DNA of 64,000 nt from Telopea speciosissima (lineage: Eukaryota > Streptophyta > Magnoliopsida > Proteales > Proteaceae), in NCBI RefSeq assembly GCF_018873765.1, contig NC_057925.1:2558927-2622926 (forward strand), written 5' to 3'. A program made the position numbers and the translations under genes. Position 1 is the first letter of the stretch. Each line of letters starts with the position of its first letter. This document shows, in pieces, positions 2,342 to 56,550 of the stretch. Under the pieces are notes generated by a model. The model made no database searches. It saw nothing but the letters and a program-made list of their open reading frames with translations, and had not been told where the DNA came from.

Positions 2342-4324
2342 TTTTTTTTTTCCTTCTTTCTTTGGGAAAAGCTTAGGGTTCTATATGTTTTTCTTTCAAA
2401 CATGAAGACATGTGACCTATTTCTACCATGTGGATGGCTGATTTAGTTATTGTTACTTTTGGCTAAATAGCTAAGTTGGCGAGTCAAGTAATTAGAATCT
2501 ATTTATTCTCAATTACGTTTCAAAATTAAGCTCTATTCTTCCAATTGGTCAGGTTTAATTGGATTAGCAAGAAAAGCTTTAGTCGGTAATGTAGTACATT
2601 ATGACTGAATTCAATTCCATGGATGGTGGAGCCTTTTGACTCAGCAACTATGCATTCTTCACGTTCTAATGAATAAATTTTAATTTATCCAAAAAAAATA
2701 AATGCTTAATTCAATTGAAAATTGGCGAAAATGGAGTTTCCTCGACCACCTTTGAAGAAAAAATCCACTTTTCCCGGTATCCTTGGTGCAAACCAAAATA
2801 CTATCACTAGGAATATCAACTAGAAGTTAAAAAAATAAAATAAAAGAAAGAAAAAGATATAAGGTTTTACTTTAAAAGTGGTTTATGTGTGTCCATCATA
2901 TAGAGTTTATGGTCTCGATTAGTCATGTATCAAATTGGTGCCTAGTGGACTCACCGCTAGGGTGTCTCGGAGAGGGAGTGGGTGCCTAATGGGCTCAAGG
3001 GATAGTGATTAAGGATGTCAACAGATATTCAAAAATCTATATTGGATTCGTGTTCATATTAGTTTAGGAAAATCCAAATCCGTTTGAAAAGTAATCGGAT
3101 ACGAATATGATAATCCCCCTATTCGACCTATCATTATCTGATTCGTTTAGCAATCTAACAGTAATAAAATGTCTGAAATATATCTTTATGTCCCTCTATC
3201 TGATTAAGTCACCCTTGAATTTTATTTTCTTATTTTTTTAATTTTATAAGTTAAGATAATGTGATTCTTTTTCTTTCTATTGGTTTATATATATCTTCCT
3301 TTATGCACTGTATTACATGGAATCACATATCTATTAATTAAAATAAATACAAGACAAATTCAAAAGTAAAAATGTAAGAAAATCAAAGACTAAGAAAAAA
3401 TAGAAGAAAGGATAGTTGTTGAACTCTCAATTCTCAACCATAACCCTCATCATTATAACAATAAAGATGTCAACCGATAGTCAAAAATTCATATTCGATC
3501 CGCATTTATATCCATTTAAGAGAATCTGTATTCAACAAAACATTATCGAGATACTATTCGAAAACGTATAATCAGATACGAATATAATAATGCCACTATT
3601 TGACTGAATTCAATCGATTTACATCCTTAGTAGCAATAGCTAGATAGTGATACCTGGCAAGCACCATGCACTTGTGAGTATTTGATTAAGTAACCAAACC
3701 TAGGGTATGCCTTCAACCTGGCAATGCCAAATCACAGATTATTATCTTCCCAAAATCTTAAAGCTCGGCAGTGCGACAGTAAAGCAGTACTAGATAGAGA
3801 TGCCGACACCATGACAGCTCAGACATCCAAAAGTCGGTTGTTAGCAGCTAAAATAAGTGTATACCTAAAACTCATTTATTAGTTGGGCTTGCATGCCACC
3901 CTAGTCAGAACCCTAGGAAACAGCACCAGAACCCAAAAGAGGATCTTTAATTTCTAGTTCTTGTCTACCCATGTTGAAGGTCAAAGTCAAATACAACAAG
4001 TGCTGGTTAACCAACCACGGCTACCACCCACTCACTACACCACAACTTTTCAACACGGACTGCCAACTTTTCCACATAAAGCCAATAGGAGGGAGGCCCG
4101 GCCTGTTCCATCTTTAAGAAACAACCAAAAATAATAAGCACTACAAAACAAATGCGAAATAGGAAAACCGGTTCAGGGGTGCGATGGTCTTTTTCATATC
4201 GAATTATATTTGAGCACAGATAAATCCACACGCAGCACCGATTGGCATTCTTTTTCTTTAAAGAAATAGACAAGAGCTAAATTCCCAACAATTGTAAAAG
4301 GAGAAATTAATTAAGCAACATGGA
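2342..4324. other. intergenic, 3' flank of dirigent copy 1
   Basis: No gene is seen. The stretch contains blocks shared with segment 2. It also holds two related AT-rich elements with ends like AAGATGTCAACCGATA and CGATTTACATCCTTAG (about 3008-3160 and 3463-3632). A third related copy lies near 51545-51650. They resemble small non-autonomous DNA transposons, but I could not fix exact ends or target duplications. Confidence 0.45.
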
Positions 4325-5874: not shown

Positions 5875-6730
5875 GATTTATAGGAAGAAATGGGAAGAAC
5901 TTTGTAAGAGTATGCGGGAGAATGATCTTGGATTTAGGGATTTGAAATCCTTAAACCAAGCTCTTTTAGCTAGGCAGTCCTAGCGAGTCCTCCAAAACAA
6001 TGGTGCTCTCTAGGTAAGGGTTCTAAAAAGGAAATATTTTGCCCAAGTCATCATTTATCGAGGCTCCCATCAAGCATAATTGTTCTTGGGATTGAAGAAG
6101 TCTACTGAAAGGTAGAGATCTTCTTTTAAAGGGGCTGCGAAGGAGGATTGGAGATGGTCGTTCCATTGCTACATTTTAAGATCATTGGATCCCCACCCGC
6201 CTCCGTGAAGGTTGTATTATTAGCCTAAGATCTCATCCTCAAGTCTCTTTAGTTTCCAATTTTATTACCCAACCTTTTAGGCAGTGGAATAAACCACTCC
6301 TTTCTTCTTCTGTTTTTCGCCCTAAAGTGGTTGCTATTGAATAGATCACTTTACGAATTATCCCTAAGGAAGACAGCTGGAGTTGGGGTTTCACAAAGAG
6401 ATGGGAGGTTTTTTGTGCAATCTGCTTATTATGTTTCTTTATCTACTCTCCATCCTTCCTTTTCTTTGTTGACTGGATTGCTGATTGTATCGTTGATGAT
6501 ATTCTATCTCTATGTTCTGATTTTTCAATTGTTATGTTTTAGTCATATTTCACGAGATTCTAATAGGAAGACTCATTACTCAGCAAAAATTGCTTCTGGT
6601 TTTGGTATTTCTACGGTTTGGTGGTTGCATCCATCTCGTGGTCTCGTAAACTCTGCGTTTTTTACGAGTGAGTTTCTCCTTGTGTGACTTTTGTTAATAA
6701 AATTTTCACAATCTCTAATAAAAACAAAAG
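5875..6730 (+). mobile_element. L1-type LINE, decayed 3' part
   Basis: Translating the plus strand in shifting frames gives pieces typical of the C-terminal part of plant L1-type ORF2. These include LGFRDLKSLNQALLARQ, then RRRIGDGRSI, a W-rich stretch with FTKRWEVF, and near the end SHISRDSNRK, which resembles the RNase H-like tail. Frames change several times and stops interrupt it, so it is a 5'-truncated dead copy. The 3' end appears to fall near 6726, after an A-rich tail. Confidence 0.65.
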
Positions 6731-38189: not shown

Positions 38190-38410
38190 ACAAACAAACA
38201 ACTTGGCCTTATCGAACTGAATGGGATAGGCTACATGGATCCTTACCCTCCAATTAGTTCAATTCGAGGTCATACTTGATAGCTATGCATGTCTTTCCTC
38301 AATATGTCTCCTAAGATCATTTTAGGTCTACGTTTGGCTCTTTTTGTTCTTTCGATATAAATCAAATCATTCATGCATGTTAGGGCATCTGATCATGTCA
38401 TTTCAAATGA
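38190..38410 (-). mobile_element. RTE-type LINE 3' end
   Basis: On the minus strand the sequence runs CCTAAAATGATCTTAGG, then TCGAATTGAAC..ATTGGAGGG, GGATCCATGTAGCC and a tail into GTTGTTTGTTTG. This is the same order as the RTE end at 21280-21400. Truncated and dead. A similar short tail lies at 37478-37530. Confidence 0.65.
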
Positions 38411-38734
38411 TTTTCTCGTAACTTATCATGTATCCAGATCCTTTTCAATGAAGGCATCGCCCAATGAGCATCCAATGGTTGGACTGCCTTGGCACGTTGA
38501 TTGGGCACACACCAAGATGTGTTCCAAGCAACCCAGCCGTTAGATGTCTCATTCTCATTGGACACTCATTGGAGAAGATCCCAATTCCCTTCGGGAAGCT
38601 TGTCCGGATTCAACCCGATTTGTTCCCCATATCACCCATGACAACCCGGTTCATTATAGTGTGTGATTACGTCATTAGAGTTCATGTAATACGACGATAG
38701 CGTACGGTTGTTGCTTGGCGGTTGGCCCATGTAG

Positions 38735-38742
38735 TATATAAG
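38735..38742 (+). promoter_or_regulatory. TATA box of HUB2
   Basis: TATATAAG, about 265 bases before the HUB2 ATG. Transcription start is expected near 38765-38772, giving a leader of about 230 bases that includes the uORFs. A TTACGTCA element (bZIP-type core) lies at about 38668-38675. Confidence 0.6.
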
Positions 38743-38816
38743 TTTTTCCCTGCTTTCTTGTTTCATTTTTGTTTGCTTTCCAACGCTCTTTCTCCAGAAC
38801 TCACTTCCACTTCCAG

Positions 38817-39000
38817 ATGGCATAAGCTTTTGGGGAAGCACGGAGCTCGTCACAGCGATGGCTTTGGAGATCAAGCAACTAGACAACTGTAAATTTAGCA
38901 TGGCAGGGTTCTTCTTCTGCCTCGGAAAATTAGGGTTCTTCGGACCTTCAAGTTTCCACCTTTAATGGGTGGCATTTGCGTTTGTTTTGGAGGCTTTTAA
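38817..39000 (+). promoter_or_regulatory. chained uORFs in the HUB2 leader
   Basis: Three upstream ATGs precede HUB2. A minimal one reads ATGGCATAA (38817-38825). uORF1 is 35 codons from 38858, in a good context (G at -3, G at +4), with a second in-frame ATG at 38900; its stop TAA is 38963-38965. uORF2 starts at 38965, sharing that A (TAATG), and encodes MGGICVCFGGF; its stop TAA is 38998-39000. The HUB2 ATG starts at 39000, again sharing one A (TAATG). A ribosome finishing one frame is therefore exactly on the next start. Translation of HUB2 is probably limited by this arrangement, if the transcript starts at the TATA box above. Confidence 0.65.
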
Positions 39001-42000
39001 TGGAGAATCCCGAGGCCGATGAGCCTGATAAAAAGAAGCGTCATCTTAACTCTGTGTCTTCCGCCATGGCCAGGAACACACCTTCTTCGCCCGAGAACAG
39101 GACTGTAAGCTCTCACCCTTTCTTCTTAACTCTTTGATTAGAACTTCTTTTTGGCAATTATCTATTGGCTATCATATCTGCTAATTATTTGATTATTCTG
39201 GCCAGTTTAATTTTTGATTCTCTGTATACATGATTGATCTTCTCGATTCTGTTCCATTCCTCGGTTAATATGGTATTGGATTTGGGTATAAGTCAGTAAA
39301 CAATGATACTGAACTCATAGGATATGTTCATAAACAATGGAAGAAATGAGGAAACTTAGTTATGGAAGAAGTATTACTGATTTGGAAACCCTAATCCCCG
39401 ACACATATTGTAAGAGGCCACTGCATTTATCTCAGACTTAATTGTCAAAAGTGGTGAATTTCATTTTCTGTCCTTAAATTTCCAATTAAACGTGACAAAT
39501 TTCGAATTAGATGTTAGTATAAGAGATAGGTCCTTATATTCCTGATAGGGTTCAAAAGTTACCTTGAAGATGTTTTATTGGGCTTCTCCCACAGGAAACC
39601 CTTGTTAGCAGTTATTTTTGTCAGATTAATAGTGCATATGCTTTACCCTTTTGAAGAACCATAGCATTCTGTTGGTGAGGAATGACATGCACAAAATAAA
39701 GAAGTGTCAGTTTATCTTCCATATTGAAGAAAGCAAATTGAAAATTTGGAGGGAATATTATAACATTTGCAACTTTTGAATAGCTGTGCTTCTGTCTAGT
39801 CCACTCCCTATTGTTTTTTTAGAAGTTAGAAACATCCAAACTAACAAAAGGATATTAGTGATTCCCCTAAATTTTCCTGTTTATACACACCCTTCACTGC
39901 CAAATTTGATCAGTGGAATTGCTGTGGGCATGCTGCAGGCATCATGAAAAAAAAAAAAAAGAACCCTTGCTATTGTGGAAAAAACTACTCTGTTGACAAG
40001 CCCTCTGGGCATATCTGGTCCTCTCTCTTATGTGGATGAGAGCCACTGACACCCAAACTAATAGGGGGTATTGGTTATAGTTGTTCACATTACTCCCTTC
40101 CCTGCAAACTTGGATCATTGAAGTTATGTACAGTTGTACACACAGTGCAGGCACAATGGTCATCATCAACGTTAGAGCCTTATGCGAGTTATTCCACCAC
40201 TGTGGTCCATCTAGGGCTGCATGTTTTTACTTGTAATAGCAAATGTTCCAAGATCGGGATGTGATGGGTTGTTAGACGGGTCCTTCAGGGAACTGTACTC
40301 CTCAACTGGTTGTCTGGTTGACTTGATTGTTGGCCTCCATTAATCCAAACTCCTGGTTGAACTAGGATCTAGATGGTTAACATGCAAACTGCCTGACTTG
40401 GATGAATAGATTGAAGCTATTGCCATAGCTGGGAGGTCTCTGTAATGCTCTTGACTTTTCTCTTGGTAACATATTGCATAATACCATCAAATAAGAAATA
40501 AAAATTCAATCTTTCATCTGCATTTGTAGGTTGATGCAGCAGTTCTCCAGTATCAGAATCAAAAGCTTGTTCAGCAGCTGGATGCCCAGAAACATGAATT
40601 TCATGTTCTGGAAGGAAGTTTCAAAGAATTGAAAGACAAGCAGACTTCTTATGATGACACTTTAATTACAGTGAACAGACTCTGGGATCAGGTAAACTCA
40701 ATTCTACTCAACTAAGCCTTTTTCCCAGCAAACTATGGAATCAAGTTCAACCAAGAAATAAAAAAAAGGTCAATTTTGGAAGTATTGTTGATACATGCAC
40801 CCACCGTAGTTCTCCTCTTTTTGTCCCCCCCCCTCCCTTTCCTTATTAGATCTTTATTAATTAATTTCCTTCCCCAATTGTAGTTGGTTGACGATTTGAT
40901 TCTGCTTGGAGTACGAGCTGGGGGTGATGGTAATGGCTTGCAAGTTCTGGATCAAGCTGATCGCTCTCAAGGTTTTTTCCCCCTCTCTAAACTGTTGTTG
41001 ATCTGTTGATAAAATGTGTGGAAGTCAGCTCATAGTTCTTTCGAAGCATAGATATTAACTTATTTTCTCAATTTCTTTTGCTCTAGGTTCAATCCCCTCC
41101 TGTCCCTGGGAGGAGATGTTTCTCTGTAGACTTCTAGAAGCTGATCCTGTCGATAGGAATGGAGCTAAGGAAGCTACCAACTATGTTGAAGAAGCTCTTG
41201 CTGCTCGCCATTCCTCTACTTTGAATTTGATGAAATACTTAGAGGATACTATTGATGCTCAAAGAGATAAAACAGATAGAATTGCATCAAATTTTCATGG
41301 AAAGCTCTCTGCTGAAGGTCAGAAAGGATCTTGGTGCGGGGATCTACCGGTTGATAATTTGTTGTTTTTATTTACTACCCTAATTTTATTGGCAGAGTTG
41401 TGATTTTAAAATTGTACCAGGAATTTTTTTGGTGATAAATTATCTTCTCATGTTTGGATCTTTCAGATGCTATCATCCAACAGCATAAGATTGATGAATT
41501 AATGAGTGAGGAAGCTGACAATCTACGAAAGGTGATTGATATTCTTCACTCGAAGCATAGAGAATATGCGCTTGAGATCCAAACTTACGTGCACAACCTT
41601 TCTATGGATCAATCTGAGATAAAACGCCTTGCAGGTCTTGAGAAACAATTCCACTTATTCATCTTTGGATTGTATATTCATGTATTTGTTGTATAGATGT
41701 ATTCAATTATGCAGCAATATTTAGTTTTAATTCTTTTGGAAAATAGAGACATGTTAACTTGCACAGTTGGGATAGCACACTGGCTGATAGGTAATCACAG
41801 TATGCTCACTAAGGGCATATTACATCTTTGTTGTCTATTTGAGCTGGTCTGCCTTTCCTTTATGTTGACAGGTGAGCTGGAGGAAAGCATGACAGAACTA
41901 GAGGAGAGTAGGAGAAAATTAGTTAATCTGAAAATGCAGAAGGGTGGCACATCTGTAGTGCATGTTCCGGTTCAGAATGCCGTAAATGGGAGGATGTCAC

Positions 42001-48000: not shown

Positions 48001-50299
48001 GACACCCTATCCATAAATTGGTAATTACTTTCTTGGTACAGATATGTCTTACAAGATGTTTTTCTTGTTCACAATGTAACTAATAAGCTTTAAACCTGCA
48101 GAAAATCACTCTAATTAGATTATTTTTTTACCTCAAAATCCGCTTTTCTTTTTAAGACAGCAAGGGGGCAATTGACTTTTTAAGGCTATTCACTGCCTTG
48201 TGTCCTTTCTCTCCACATTTAAATTCTGCTTTATTTAAGGCCTCATAAAGCACTTTCCAGGAGTCCTTTTCTCCATTCAATTAAATTGACTGAAATTCCG
48301 AAGTGAAAGGTGGAAGAGCCACACCCGAATAATCTAGGCTTTTGCTCACTCAAAACATTTCCGAAGAAAGTTACAGAAATAATCCATTTAATGCCTCAAA
48401 ATTCAACAAAAATTGTGCATGTTGTTTGAACCAGTGCTCAATTAGTAGGGATTGGATGTGTATTCGTGTGAAGTCCTGTGAGTATCTCCGAACAGATTCA
48501 GGCAACACAAGACAACATCAGATCTGTTTTTGCTTTTTTTTTTGTATCTGGTTTGTGGTATTGATAAGTTCTTTACTGCACTGGCATTCATTTTGGTTCT
48601 CCAATTTGCAGGGATGTTTTGGAGCTTTCAGAGGCAGTAAAAATCAAGGATGGAGAAGCTGAGGCTTATATTTCTGAAATTGAGGTGTCCTGTTTGATTC
48701 TTTTCCCATACTGTTCCTGTCATTAATCATTATGCAACACTTTTGACTGCCCAGCATTCTTAAAATTTCATTTGGTATTGTTTTCTTTCTCTTTTCTTCA
48801 GACCATTGGTCAAGCATATGAAGATATGCAGACACAGAACCAACATTTGTTGCAACAGGTTACTGACAGAGACGATTACAATATCAAGGTCTGCATTGTA
48901 GCTAGCTGCTTTGCTAGCTCAATCCTGTTTATTCATCAGCTTCAAGCTTCATGTTTGTTTTTGTAATGCTTGTTTGCTCTGATGCACTGATGTGTAGTTG
49001 ATCTTTTCTGATTATATTGGATTATGGACTGCAGCTAGTATCTGAGAGTGTGAAAACAAAGCAGGCACAGAGCTTTCTGCTTTCTGAGAAGCAGATGTTA
49101 GCAAAGCAGCTCCAGCAAGTTAATGCAGCATTAGAATCCTTAAAACTAAAGATTTCCAACAGTGAAGAACAGGTAGGTTTTTCTTACTCTAAAATCATGC
49201 CCCTCCAACTCCCCGAAGGTTTTAAAACCCGGATTGGTCCCGGTTGATTTTGATTCAGGTTGGATCAGAATCGGCCTGATTTTAAATCACTGCTCCCCCC
49301 TCCCCAAAAAAAAAAAAAAAGTTCACCTCTCTGTCCAACCATAATTTGTTCTTGCAGATAAAAGCATATCTGACTGAAGCAGGAACAGCTTCTCTGGAAA
49401 ACAGACACCTTACCATCAACATCGAGAGTGCAAAATGGGAATTGGCAGATGCTGAGAAAGAGTTGAAATGGTTGAAGGCTGCTGTTTCTTCTTCGGAAAA
49501 GGAATTTGAGCATAACCAGCGAAAGGCGGTGGAAATCCAATTAGAATTGGAGAGTGAAAGGTTAGTTTTTTTTTTTTTTTTTTTTGGTTTCATGTATCCC
49601 ATCTAGAAGATTGCATGTAGACCAGGTGGACCTGTAATGGCACTAAGTTAGCATTGATGATGTTAAAGGTGGTCCACTTCTCGAATGGTTGTGTGGGACA
49701 GGACAGGTGCCTCAGTTTGCATTAGCCTGGTTGTCAATGTTTAGCTCAAGTGTATTTCTAAAATTTGAATGAGTGCTTTCTGATCCAGAGCCGAGAAGAC
49801 GAGACTTGAAGAAGAGCTCAAGGAGCTGAACAACAAGGTGGTGGAGATGAGTTCTGAAAGTGGGGAGGCTGCAATACAGAAACTCCATGATGAGATCAAG
49901 GAGTGCAAGGCAATACTGAAGTGTGGTGTATGTTTTGACCGGCCTAAAGAGGTAAGATGTGTAGCTTTTCTTGTCAGAACAACTGCATGAAACCTTCTGA
50001 TTTCTGAGCACCATTAAGATTAACCGTCGCACTACTTAAAACCAAAGAGAATACTTTAGTTCATGCTTGTATGGATACCATGAATGCATGGATATAAGTA
50101 AAGTGAGTGGTTTTATACTCGTACCCTGGATGAATGTTGGTGATGGACTTGGTTTGTTGACTTGCAGGTTGTAATTACAAAGTGCTACCACCTGTTCTGC
50201 AATCCATGCATCCAACGGAATCTAGGGATCCGCCATAGGAAGTGCCCTGGGTGTGGAACTGCATTTGGGCAGAACGATGTTCGATTTGTGAATATCTGA
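39000..50299 (+). CDS. HUB2: HUB2/BRE1-type histone H2B E3 ubiquitin ligase
   Basis: Nineteen exons with matching phases encode 879 aa: 39000-39104, 40530-40691, 40884-40971, 41087-41317, 41467-41634, 41872-42065, 42262-42345, 42436-42555, 42636-42822, 42916-43076, 43858-43929, 45706-45782, 47076-47270, 48612-48684, 48802-48888, 49035-49172, 49358-49560, 49789-49951, 50168-50299. All introns are GT-AG. The start MENPEADEPDKKKRH matches Arabidopsis HUB2 as I recall it, as do ETIGQAYEDMQTQNQH and the C-terminal CGTAFGQNDVR. Most of the protein is coiled coil. The end is a C3HC4 RING: C827, C830, C842, H844, C847, C850, C862, C865. HUB1/HUB2 form a nuclear heterodimer that monoubiquitinates histone H2B and thereby affects transcription elongation, dormancy and flowering. 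All RING ligands are present, so the gene looks functional. Confidence 0.95.
43930..45705. other. HUB2 intron 11 (1776 bp)
   Basis: The intron is enlarged by an LTR-like insertion (44237-45667), leaving about 345 bp of ordinary intron. Splice sites are TTG/gtatgt and ttgcag/ATT. Confidence 0.7.
44237..45667 (-). mobile_element. probable solo LTR inside HUB2 intron 11
   Basis: About 1.4 kb, flanked on each side by AACTA (44232-44236 and 45668-45672), a 5-bp target duplication. Read on the minus strand it begins TGATGTAGATCGAAGC and has a TATA-like TCTATATAATGAC box and an A/T-rich transcript-end region, the layout of a plant LTR. No internal protein region is present, as after LTR-LTR recombination. 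It lies antisense to HUB2. The 3' end is less certain than the start. An old, inert fossil. Confidence 0.6.
45783..47075. other. HUB2 intron 12 (1293 bp) with LTR-like remnant
   Basis: Part of this intron (about 45830-46560), read on the minus strand, carries a TATATATATAACCCC box and leader-like sequence, as in a plant LTR. It is a fossil without resolved ends. 46760-46860 contains GTGTCGCCTAGGC / CTCCTAGGTGGGC words of a short unrelated repeat. Confidence 0.45.
47271..48611. other. HUB2 intron 13 (1341 bp) with repeat remnant
   Basis: A block at about 47560-48370 interrupts otherwise ordinary intron sequence. Near 48345 it has CTCAAAACATTTCCGA, similar to CTCAAAACATCTCCGA at 46384 in intron 12, so related repeats hit both introns. 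Class uncertain, probably LTR-type debris. Confidence 0.35.
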
Positions 50300-52228: not shown

Positions 52229-52308
52229 CTATTAGAAGAGAAACCTAGAGAAGTTTTCTTCTCTGATTTCCAGTTGTGCCTGCTGAGAAGTGAAGTGAGA
52301 AGGACAAC

Positions 52309-54246
52309 ATGCCGGCCGGCCATGGTGTTAGATCACGAACGAGAGATCTGTTCGCTCGTCCGTTTAGGAAGAAGGGTTACATTCCATTGACGACTTACCT
52401 GAGGACATTCCGAGTCGGAGACTTCGTTGATATCAAGGTTAACGGAGCCATTCACAAGGGTATGCCGCACAAGTTTTATCATGGCCGTACCGGTAAGGTT
52501 TGGAATGTCACCAAACGAGCCATCGGTGTCGAAGTCAACAAGCAGGTATCTCTCCTCTTCTACCTTATCGTCTTCTCCCATCGTGTATTTCTCTGTTTCT
52601 GTATTGTAGAAAATGGATTCTTATGATGTTTGAATCTGAATCTGTTTTTGATTCGTAATTTTCACATTTGTTGTTGAAGAAATAGCTGTTTAGGTTCAGT
52701 TTAATGGAATCACTGTTGCATTTTGATTTATAAAGGAATAATTTTCTACTACTTGCTATGCTGTAGGATCTATAGAAAGCGATTTCACAAAGAAAGAATA
52801 AACATTGATTAGTATCCTTTAATATTGTTTAGAACTTTTATGATGACAAGCAGTTTATAGACGCAGTATTCAATAGCTACAAATACAAAGGAAATGATAA
52901 TTTTTATAATGAGAGGAATAATCTTCAACGCATGGCCTTCCAAGATTAATTAGTACAACTACCTATGCTGCACTTGAAAGTATAGTCATTGCATTATGGG
53001 TTGTGTGGAATCTTTTTATTAGGTCTAGTAACCTTGTTGTTTAATTCGGTGCAGAGTCATTTTGGTTTACTGAGCGTTTCAATTTGGTTTGTGGTATTTG
53101 ATTCTTCATTGGGAAAATTCTATGTGGTTGTTAAGCTCATTATTCCGTGATGGGTCGTCCATATTACACGCTAATGTGGTGTTTTGGACACAATGAGTTC
53201 TCTCCCCCCCCCCCCCCTTGTATTTTAGTGTACAATACGCTGGAAGTATTTTTCTCTTACTGAAGTGTCCTCTGATCTGCATTTACTTTGTCACTGCATG
53301 ATGTACTGGTATATTCGTTGACAGATTTTTAATTTATCTGTTTTATATTCAATGTCCTTTTTGAGGTAGTAATATTCTGCCATTAGGAATAGGATCTGAC
53401 CGAAAATCAGTGCACCTAGTGCAATGGTAAGTGACGGTTGTTACAAAGATGGTTTCAAATTCCATTAGTTTCACAAGTCAGTCCCAATCTAATCACTTCT
53501 TAATGGTCCTTTACATAAATGGTTGCCAATGGATTTATCTTTTTTGGATGATTTGGCTGGCTGTATCCTGTGTCATCCTCTACAGTACAGACACTTTGCT
53601 CACAACGGATAATGGAGAGGAAGTTGTATGTAATACTTGTTAAATTTTATTTTTGGATGCATTCTGGTTTTTAATTTATATGAAGCTGAAGAAAGGTTCT
53701 CATTTATGACACCATGCACAATTTAACAACTCTTTTGCATCTTCAATTCCTAATTACCCTTGTAAAGGAGTTCCAGACTTTATCTAATTCGAATTTTTGG
53801 AGTTTGACGTTATAAGAGATCAGTCCTTTGCCTATTATTAAATATGGTTTATGTATTGGTTTTGTGTTACAGTGATTAGAATTGATGTCTTTTCATATTT
53901 TTTCTTATTTTTGGGGAAAGGAAGGTTCTAAGTTATATATAGTTTACCTTTCTTGGCAAATATTTTGACATTAATGTTAATGGTTCAGGTGCGAAACAAA
54001 ATACTCAAGAAACGAATTCATGTGCGTGTGGAGCATGTCCTGCCTTCGAGGTGCAATGAGGAAATTCGACAACGCAAGATAAAGAACGACCAACTGAAGG
54101 CAGAGGCTAAAGCCCGAGGTGAGGTGATTAGTACCAAGAGACAGCCAGAAGGCCCTAAACCAGGTTTCATGGTGGAAGGTGCCACTTTGGAGACTGTGAC
54201 CCCTATCCCCTATGATGTTGTTAATGACCTCAAAGGTGGATACTAG
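52309..54246 (+). CDS. RPL21: 60S ribosomal protein eL21
   Basis: Two exons: 52309-52545 (79 codons, [19 protein letters not shown] to EVNKQ) and 53989-54246 ([16 protein letters not shown] to DLKGGY, stop at 54244). The 1443-bp GT-AG intron is phase 0. The product is 164 aa, the usual eL21 length in plants. Family features: a basic N-terminal tail, the SH3-like core [29 protein letters not shown], and the helical C-terminal region [17 protein letters not shown]. eL21 is a structural protein of the large cytosolic ribosomal subunit near the central protuberance. The frame also reads on past the exon 1 donor to 52626, but that part is intron. Confidence 0.96.
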
Positions 54247-56550
54247 GTTAGCAGTTCCTTCTTGGTGTTCAGTTTTTGTCTGGTCATTATGGACGGTTGA
54301 TGGGATTTAGAATCTTGAGATATTTATTTTCTTGAGATTTCTTTTTGTTTGTTATGAGTCTAAAAGAACATCTAGTTTGTTTAACTATCAATTTTAGATA
54401 CAAGTGAAGTTATTTTGTCAGAGATCTTGAATGGTGTTTAATATTATAGGTGGATTTCTATTATGATTTTTCTGTTGAATGTTTATCAGCAACTCAGTTT
54501 GGTCTACCTGAATCTCCTTCTCCCTGTGTGCTCCTGTGTGTGTGTGAGAGAGGAGTGTTCTAGTTTTTGGGGTAATATTTGGCATAAACCTTCAGGCTAA
54601 TATTTACTGGCAATGGTTGTCTATTGGTTGTTGGCCACCCTCTTGTAGCTTGTGGAGCCAAGTGGAGCATGGGGAGGTGAATTACAATTCCTCCCTATGC
54701 TTGCTTCTTTTATCTGCAACAACTTTCTAATTAATTTTATGATATTTTTGGATGTTATGACTTTCTCCCTTATATATATGTTTTATTGTTATTTGGTCGC
54801 ACATAGTTCTTCTTGGAAAACAATTGGTGATTTCCAGGATTTTATCTGTGCGTAAATCAAATCAGTGGCAAAGCATTCTCTTGTTGAGGCTTCACCTAAT
54901 GGGGATGTGCTCCAATGCTAATGGCTGACATTTTATGTGCTCTATTGTTTACATAAAGGCTAGTTTTTCTAGACCGGTTTATAATGTTTTTCCTAGTGAC
55001 AACTAGTCTTGCCATGTTTGTGGAAATTGATGGGGGGCAATGTTAACCTTGTGGATGTCTGTGAAGTGGTTTAGATTTGGTAAAAAATGTTGAGATTCAA
55101 ATCAATCATATGCCCTTACCACACCCTTGTATTTTCAGCATTCCATTTTTTCTTTTTAGAGAAACTTGGAAGTTTTCACTGCATTTTTAACCTTATTTTT
55201 GCAGTAGAAGAAATCTGTTTTAGTTAAAACCTCTCATATTTGTTTGGTTTTACCCAAAAAAAAAAACATATTTGCAAAGAACATAGGGTGTATCATGTGT
55301 CCTAACTTCTAATCCATCCACTATTTTTAAAACTCTAACAAATAAATATTGGTGCCATAAATGAGAAGCCCCCAAATTCTGAATATTTTAATAGATTTCC
55401 ATTAGTGTATTTCTGAAACCCTAAATATAATCAATCAAGAGTTAGAGAACTTCTCTGTTATCACTGTAGCACACCCATTGTCCCATTTTGTCTTTCCGTC
55501 TAATGACAGTATCAAAACCCTTACTTAGTAGAAGACTGTGAGAATAACATTAGAGCACATCCAAAGTCTCATTGTTCTCTATAATGAATGTGAGGCATAA
55601 CACATCGATTGTAACTGGTCTCCAGGGAGCCTAGCACGCCCAGGGTGCATCTAGCTGGTGGGTTGTGCTGCACACTTCCCTATGTGTGTGCCGAGATGTG
55701 TGTAGCACAGCTCAACTGCTGGATCTTGATCCAGGCAAACTCTTAATTCACCGGGAGCCCATCTTATTGAAGTGTAATTTGTTGCCCACGTGCCATCTAT
55801 TGGACATAGATGGTTTCTTGTGCCTTATGAATCTTGAGCTCATCTCATTGGTCAATGGTTTGCTTCTTTGCAAGCATGGAAGTGATTCAATAATTCAAGC
55901 CTCACTGTTAGGCTTTTATAAGAGGCATTTAGGAGAATGAAATACAATAATTGACAGAATGAGGTCCTAGGCATCGATAGTGAAAGGGGTTGTCTCCCCA
56001 TCTATTCCCATTGGTAATATATATTAGGGAGGGATAATAACCCAAAAGTTTAATCAAATATGATCTAATGATCCTATCATCCAGAAGGGATTTTTCTACT
56101 TTAATGGTTAGGATGGCCACCGTAATCGTCTGAAATAGCTATCCTATATGCAGCTTCATTGATTGGTGTCCCATGAAACATTACTTTTATATAACTACAA
56201 GGCATGTGAAGGTATGGAGGGCAAAACATGGATTGGTTTGGTATTGGACCAATAATTGGGGCTGATTGTGAACCTATGAATAGATTCATCCGGAGCCATA
56301 CAAGTTAGGCATGGCTTCAATGACCTATGATGAATGTGAACCTGGGCACACTGTAAGCCTGGACTTCATGATGATATAGTGAGTAGCATTGTCTTCAAAA
56401 TTGGACAAGGCTGGATGGTCAGATTGGTCAACTCATCATTTGAGTATGTTTTGAAGTTGATCCTCATATTGACCAAGTCTATTTGGGAGCTAGACTGAAC
56501 CACAATTGAATTATTCAACCCGGATGATTAGCAAAGAGAACTGAGAGGAA
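54247..56550. other. intergenic after eL21
   Basis: 3' UTR of the eL21 gene, then spacer. No gene is seen. A small hairpin at about 55652-55722 (GGGTTGTGCTGCACAC answered by GTGTGTAGCACAGCTC) looks like a MITE remnant. Other open frames are short and unsupported. Confidence 0.45.

Follow-up and report, generated by a model that had tools for sequence, protein, structure and literature searches.

Organization of the HUB2 gene and its leader

The window analysed here is a 64,000-nucleotide stretch of the Telopea speciosissima genome (NC_057925.1, positions 2,558,927 to 2,622,926). On its forward strand lies a gene which we take to be HUB2 as opposed to HUB1; the name rests in part on two more distant copies taken for HUB1. 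Upstream of its start codon are the frames uORF0, uORF1 and uORF2, the last two being joined to each other and to HUB2 by overlapping stop and start codons (Table 1).

Table 1. Position of the leader elements and HUB2 exons in the window, with the basis of each assignment.
Feature	Positions	Strand	Basis and details
uORF0, minimal uORF ATGGCATAA (M-A-stop)	38817-38825	+	sequence
uORF1, 35 codons and TAA	38858-38965	+	sequence and scripted ORF listing; start context GCGATGG
Junction 1, TAATG (uORF1 stop/uORF2 start)	38963-38967	+	sequence
uORF2, 11 codons and TAA	38965-39000	+	sequence; start context TTAATGG (weak)
Junction 2, TAATG (uORF2 stop/HUB2 start)	38998-39002	+	sequence
HUB2 exon 1, coding part, 35 codons	39000-39104	+	donor ACT/GTAAGC, read by eye
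In-frame ATG, HUB2 codon 23 (Met23)	39066-39068	+	sequence; context GCCATGG; same ATG in the paralog
HUB2 exon 2 match	40530-40700	+	peptide match G000:C10:2599456-2599626
Last HUB2 exons, C3HC4 RING	49784-50296	+	matches 49784-49957 and 50165-50296

Judged by its C-terminal C3HC4 RING, the main gene is BRE1-like. The RING exons matched Pfam family PF00097 (C3HC4) at 8.3e-10, and their best relatives in the PDB were BRE1A and BRE1B (BRE1A 5trb, 3.7e-16). The Pfam BRE1 model PF08647 gave no match in an exon-by-exon search of the genome, HUB1-like copies included. PF08647 being silent in this genome, the HUB2 and HUB1-like copies were located with peptides from the window. The N-terminal HUB2 exons (207 residues) matched no Pfam family. 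The final three codons of the exon 2 match (VNS) extend beyond the donor into the intron.

At both junctions one base is common to the stop codon and the next start codon, as in plant leaders whose uORFs overlap in the AdoMetDC manner. The two TAATG overlaps leading into HUB2 had been placed correctly in the preliminary description, as verified on the sequence and the scripted ORF listing. The contexts read from the sequence also agree with its statement that uORF1 has the best start context and the main ATG a weak one. The uORF1 start has G at both -3 and +4, and the uORF2 and HUB2 starts have an identical context (T at -3, G at +4) and are thus equally weak. Three elements are new with respect to that description: uORF0, an extra in-frame ATG within uORF1 at 38900, and Met23, whose context is better than that of the main HUB2 start. 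The translation of uORF1 is MALEIKQLDNCKFSMAGFFFCLGKLGFFGPSSFHL and that of uORF2 is MGGICVCFGGF. A frameshift from uORF2 into HUB2 was considered from the sequence and seems unlikely, the TTT-TAA at the end of uORF2 being no obvious slippery site.

The transcript start was assumed to lie at about 38765, from a TATA-like TATATAAG near 38734 that was read by eye. The promoter of the window gene contains at 38423-38589 a dispersed repeat with at least 44 further matches (40 of 92 candidates scored). Some of these loci match on both strands, hinting at a palindromic element; a search of 38200-38830 for inverted repeats of at least 14 was negative. The upstream region of the paralogous gene described below (L012 2917-3088) carries a different dispersed repeat with 15 further matches. 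In both promoters the repeats stop short of the uORFs.

Copies of the leader in the genome

The 823 Mb assembly (1287 contigs) was searched with the DNA of 38700-39110. Three places were found: the window itself, C10:61730336-61730640 (80%) and C10:3599207-3599345 (76%). The second place is a further HUB2 gene: it is matched by 9/9 peptide pieces taken from the window gene, with no in-exon stop, and this paralog looks like a working gene. Its classification as a pseudogene was rejected, the stops flagged in two matches falling beyond the exon ends. The third place holds just a leader fragment, not followed by HUB2, and looks dead. This fragment (L014 5208-5371, C10:3599207-3599370) lies about 1 Mb from the window gene. 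A frame MAEEFQEFNVFWPEQS, which we take to be S40/DUF584-like, starts about 85 bases beyond it.

The letters of junction 1 are present in all three copies and join two open frames in two of them, the window and the fragment. The fragment has an open uORF1 of 35 codons. In the paralog the frame is reduced to 5 codons (MTLEV-stop, with ATGGAATGA before it), and junction 1 links nothing there because the uORF1 frame closes early. The letters of junction 2 are also found in 3/3 copies, and in each uORF2 runs into the following ATG. This ATG is that of HUB2 in two copies out of three, the frame after junction 2 in the fragment being another one. uORF2 itself is open throughout, with 11 codons in the window, 10 in the paralog and 9 in the fragment, so that the net length differences are multiples of three. 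uORF0 is identical in the paralog and missing from the fragment.

Over 38834-38964, the fragment is 84% identical to the paralog and 76% to the window. Since the 35-codon uORF1 is open in the window and in the fragment, and the fragment is nearer to the paralog, this comparison suggests that the open frame was lost on the paralog side. As to the persistence of both junctions in relatives, on which the preliminary description made its proposal depend, the copies give a mixed picture. Junction 2 is kept in the paralogous HUB2, the sole intact relative compared; junction 1 is kept there in its letters, but the frame preceding it is closed and nothing terminates at it. The HUB2 pair therefore offers a natural comparison between a copy with the full two-link chain, in the window, and one with the final link alone. 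The paralog leader also contains, at the expected uORF1 start (L012 3382-3404), another overlapping pair of the ATGA type in ATGGAATGACTTTGGAGGTGTAA.

Relatives were also sought in a collection of non-plant genome contigs, where no relative was found among 278 pattern matches. The single match in a collection of viral contigs (L046, 16 residues, 69%) was judged to be due to chance and set aside.

Constraint on the upstream frames

Window and paralog were compared segment by segment. The uORF0 stretch (38813-38832) was identical at 19 of 20 positions and each junction at 5 of 5. The uORF1 body was identical at 84/105 positions (80%) with two 1-nt gaps, and the uORF2 body at 21/27 (78%), with 6 substitutions and one in-frame 3-nt gap. 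The rest of exon 1 reached 92/105, the last 3 bases of this block being intron. Intron 1, taken in three parts, gave 124/161, 307/396 and 421/548 (about 77%). From the similar values for uORF1, uORF2 and intron 1, we conclude that the leader changes about as fast as the intron.

HUB2 codons 1-22 gave a dN of 0.08 and a dS of 0.50 between window and paralog; the following block, codons 23-36, takes in one intron codon. As dN is well below dS in codons 1-22, the ATG at 39000 is supported as a real start, and the stretch before Met23 seems to be constrained as protein. For uORF1, the comparison of window and fragment gave a dN of 0.26 and a dS of 0.33, with 8, 7 and 9 changes across the three codon positions, indicating little constraint on its peptide. 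The 10 comparable codons of uORF2 gave a dN of 0.09-0.50 and a dS of 0.61-1.58 depending on gap placement, and are too short to be judged.

The retention of the uORF2 layout was compared with a neutral simulation. The window sequence served as its starting point, and one deletion, sampled from the 21 indels of intron 1 (6 of which are multiples of 3), was introduced unless it did not fit. At 22% divergence, 5.6% of the runs preserved an open uORF2 bounded by TAATG on both sides (8.3% at 18% divergence, 3.8% at 26%), and the letters of both TAATG survived in any frame in 17%. A neutral retention of about 5% is suggestive at most and depends on a simple model. Retention of this layout needs no function, because the dead-looking fragment keeps the same layout.

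Chance expectation

The frequency of such links was estimated by dinucleotide shuffling (100,000 replicates) of the 235-base leader, counted from the assumed transcript start at about 38765 and for the TAATG form only. Of the shuffles, 2.84% had one or more TAATG links into the main ATG and 0.022% had two or more. The corresponding values for the 263-base leader of the paralog were 5.15% and 0.11%. Taking about 30,000 genes per genome, a general assumption rather than a measured figure, a rate of 0.022% per leader would yield about 7 two-link genes by chance. Thus, the two-link arrangement is uncommon for a single leader, yet a few are expected by chance in a plant genome. The pattern formed by TAATG, 24 to 54 bases and TTTAATGG was found twice in the window against 0.34 expected, and 3 of 100 shuffles reached two; the second instance, at 56066, lies outside all genes studied.

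Comparison with known systems

The preliminary description considered stop-start overlaps to be rare in plant leaders. This view finds no support in AdoMetDC, whose tiny and small uORFs overlap by one base, stop on start, according to PMC5745906 and PMC7503886; there the small uORF is blocked by the tiny one overlapping it (PMC7503886). Nor does the present genome support it. With an AdoMetDC small-uORF peptide as query and each locus read from the match start, five AdoMetDC small-uORF loci were found (L047-L051, on C4, C6, C7 and C9), and in all five a tiny uORF encoding MF, MI or ML is joined by TAATG to the start of the small uORF. Two of them, L050 and L051, have divergent and shortened small uORFs and retain the tiny uORF and the TAATG. 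None of the five matches obtained with this query lies at HUB2 on C10.

HUB2 shares with AdoMetDC, as described in PMC5745906, two upstream frames in which the last base of the first stop is the first base of the next start. In the loci found here, the AdoMetDC tiny frame has two codons and a stop, followed by a small frame with a conserved peptide. In HUB2, by contrast, the first frame is long and shows little constraint on its peptide, and the second runs straight into the main ATG. The small frame of AdoMetDC ends well ahead of the main ATG.

Overlaps in series are also found in a viral mRNA. In the ORF35-37 mRNA of KSHV, as reported in PMC3561293, the uORF1 stop overlaps the uORF2 start, and uORF2, also of 11 codons, overlaps the main start. 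The authors of that study infer mutually exclusive engagement of the uORFs, with leaky scanning to the main start (PMC3561293). According to the coordinates given there, the two uORFs overlap by 4 bases, against 1 in HUB2; in the viral mRNA the weaker context is that of the first uORF, and uORF2 is used for a second gene downstream (PMC3561293). In HUB2, the stronger context is that of the first uORF, and there is no second gene behind. The comparison implies no homology.

UAAUG is among the junctions at which coupled termination-reinitiation is known to occur; the examples named in PMC5972666 are influenza B BM2 and, by the title of a reference, the SART1 retrotransposon. The HUB2 junctions have the same letters as BM2. 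In influenza B, about 10% of ribosomes restart, and a dedicated upstream element with a UGGGA core is needed (PMC5972666). The HUB2 leader differs in this respect, with no UGGGA motif of the TURBS type in 38765-39002. Its predicted fold is also ordinary (z -0.69, with 46 of 200 shuffles folding at least as well). In plants, reinitiation-permissive uORFs are usually shorter than 16 codons, and how likely a ribosome is to reacquire the initiator complex after a short uORF, and so to reinitiate, is set by how far away the next start lies (PMC5972666). uORF1, with 35 codons, exceeds this limit; uORF2 is within it but has zero distance to the HUB2 ATG.

Finally, plant uORFs with conserved peptides also consist of upstream frames in the leaders of regulatory genes. 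HUB2 is unlike them in that the dN of uORF1 is near its dS and this frame is truncated in the paralog, uORF2 being too short for a judgement.

Possible modes of action of the leader

Our preferred reading, to which we give a probability of roughly 0.4, is that the HUB2 leader acts as a translational brake of the uORF type, HUB2 being reached mainly by leaky scanning. It builds on direct observations: the sequence, the start contexts and a uORF2 that the second HUB2 gene keeps together with its junction. If transcripts start as assumed and the uORFs are translated, ribosomes scanning from the cap would meet uORF0 (2 codons), then uORF1 with the best context, then the equally weak starts of uORF2 and HUB2. 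uORF1 would be too long for efficient resumption, so that most ribosomes using it would be removed. Each one-base overlap would make the neighbouring starts mutually exclusive: a ribosome ending uORF1 on the uORF2 ATG, or uORF2 on the HUB2 ATG, would not yet have reacquired the initiator complex and would pass on. HUB2 would then be made mainly by ribosomes leaking past both uORF1 and uORF2, and the final join may hold down the output of the HUB2 enzyme. Ribosomes released from uORF2 could restart at Met23, giving a protein 22 residues shorter.

In favour of a brake are the uORF2 frame and both TAATG ends, kept despite 6 substitutions in 27 positions and a gap, together with the constraint on codons 1-22, the working-looking paralog, the overlaps in HUB1-like leaders described below and the AdoMetDC and KSHV precedents. 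Against it are the leader identity, about that of intron 1, the neutral retention that is suggestive at most, the loss of uORF1 in the paralog and the little constraint on its peptide, and the dead-looking fragment with the same layout. If the brake is real, the level of a chromatin E3 ligase, hence H2B monoubiquitination, would vary with the leakiness of the start codons and thus with the translational state of the cell. H2B monoubiquitination has been linked to dormancy gene expression (PMC7356954), and that source treats the HUB2 and uORF subjects in separate passages. A literature search, with subscription journals largely outside its coverage, found no paper on uORFs of HUB2 (or AT1G55250).

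A rival explanation is that the layout arose by chance in a neutrally drifting leader, upstream ATGs and TAATG words being frequent products of drift, with the paralog keeping the second link by descent. This explanation is a substantial contender, though we consider it somewhat doubtful. Several such genes per genome are predicted from the frequencies of two links (0.022%) and of at least one (2.8%), the leader has the substitution level of an intron, and uORF1 is broken in the paralog, with a dN near dS. It accounts less well for the survival of junction 2 and of the uORF2 frame across an in-frame gap (about 5% in the neutral model), for the near identity of 38813-38832 including uORF0, and for the stop-start overlaps in both HUB1-like leaders.

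Two further explanations concern the ribosome and the transcript. The preliminary description proposed that HUB2 synthesis is coupled to reinitiation; ribosomes ending uORF1 would restart at uORF2, and those ending uORF2 at HUB2, without scanning. The UAAUG form and a weak main ATG, which would suit restart by a parked ribosome, are consistent with this. Such coupling at zero distance is nevertheless disfavoured by the absence of UGGGA from the leader, the unremarkable fold and the length of uORF1, above the 16-codon limit, as well as by the missing first link in the paralog; moreover, according to PMC5972666, influenza B attains about 10% restart with its dedicated element, and distance to the next start governs reinitiation after short uORFs. 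By analogy with AdoMetDC and KSHV, we favour a brake with mutual exclusion over this bacterial-type coupling, which appears unlikely. The uORFs could also lie outside the main HUB2 mRNA, owing to a later transcription start or a leader intron. The homology of the HUB2 pair ends upstream at 38813 and the transcript start is an assumed one, but the TATA-like element would put it ahead of the uORFs. The sole plant-donor-like GT with a following AG at least 60 nt away is at 38889 (ACT/GTAAAT), and an intron from there to the AG ending at 38992 would fuse uORF1 to the last TAATG. This donor is weak and reads GTGAAT in the paralog, where the AG at 38952 is lost, and the AT content of 38858-38999 is 57%, under the 63% of intron 1. 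A leader intron was thus rejected as the main reading, the site being poor and not retained as such in the paralog, and placing the uORFs outside the mRNA in either way seems improbable.

HUB1-like leaders and neighbouring sequences

The two more distant copies have the first exons MASTGEPDRKRR and MGSTGEPDRKRR and were taken for HUB1. Their leaders hold ATGCCCTAATGTGA and ATGCTCTGATGTGA (L042 reverse complement 5926-5939; L043 reverse complement 3131-3144), whose ends lie 47 and 40 bases upstream of the presumed start. In each, the last base of a tiny frame's stop also begins the start-stop ATGTGA. The overlap is kept while the stop differs (TAA vs TGA), so that one copy reads TAATG and the other TGATG; it was seen post hoc in 2/2 copies, without a chance control of its own. 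Both leaders contain further upstream ATGs. The pattern ATGNNNTAATG is common genome-wide, with 24,547 forward and 24,687 reverse occurrences, against 11,858 and 11,540 for the backwards pattern.

The overlaps might represent a shared device of H2B-ubiquitin ligase genes, the one in HUB2 setting the ratio of full-length to Met23 protein and HUB1 carrying its tiny pair, both tuned by the same translational state (e.g. eIF3h, TOR). We regard this extension as very improbable.

Downstream of HUB2, a frame at 52294-52530 (19 protein letters not shown) resembles ribosomal protein L21.
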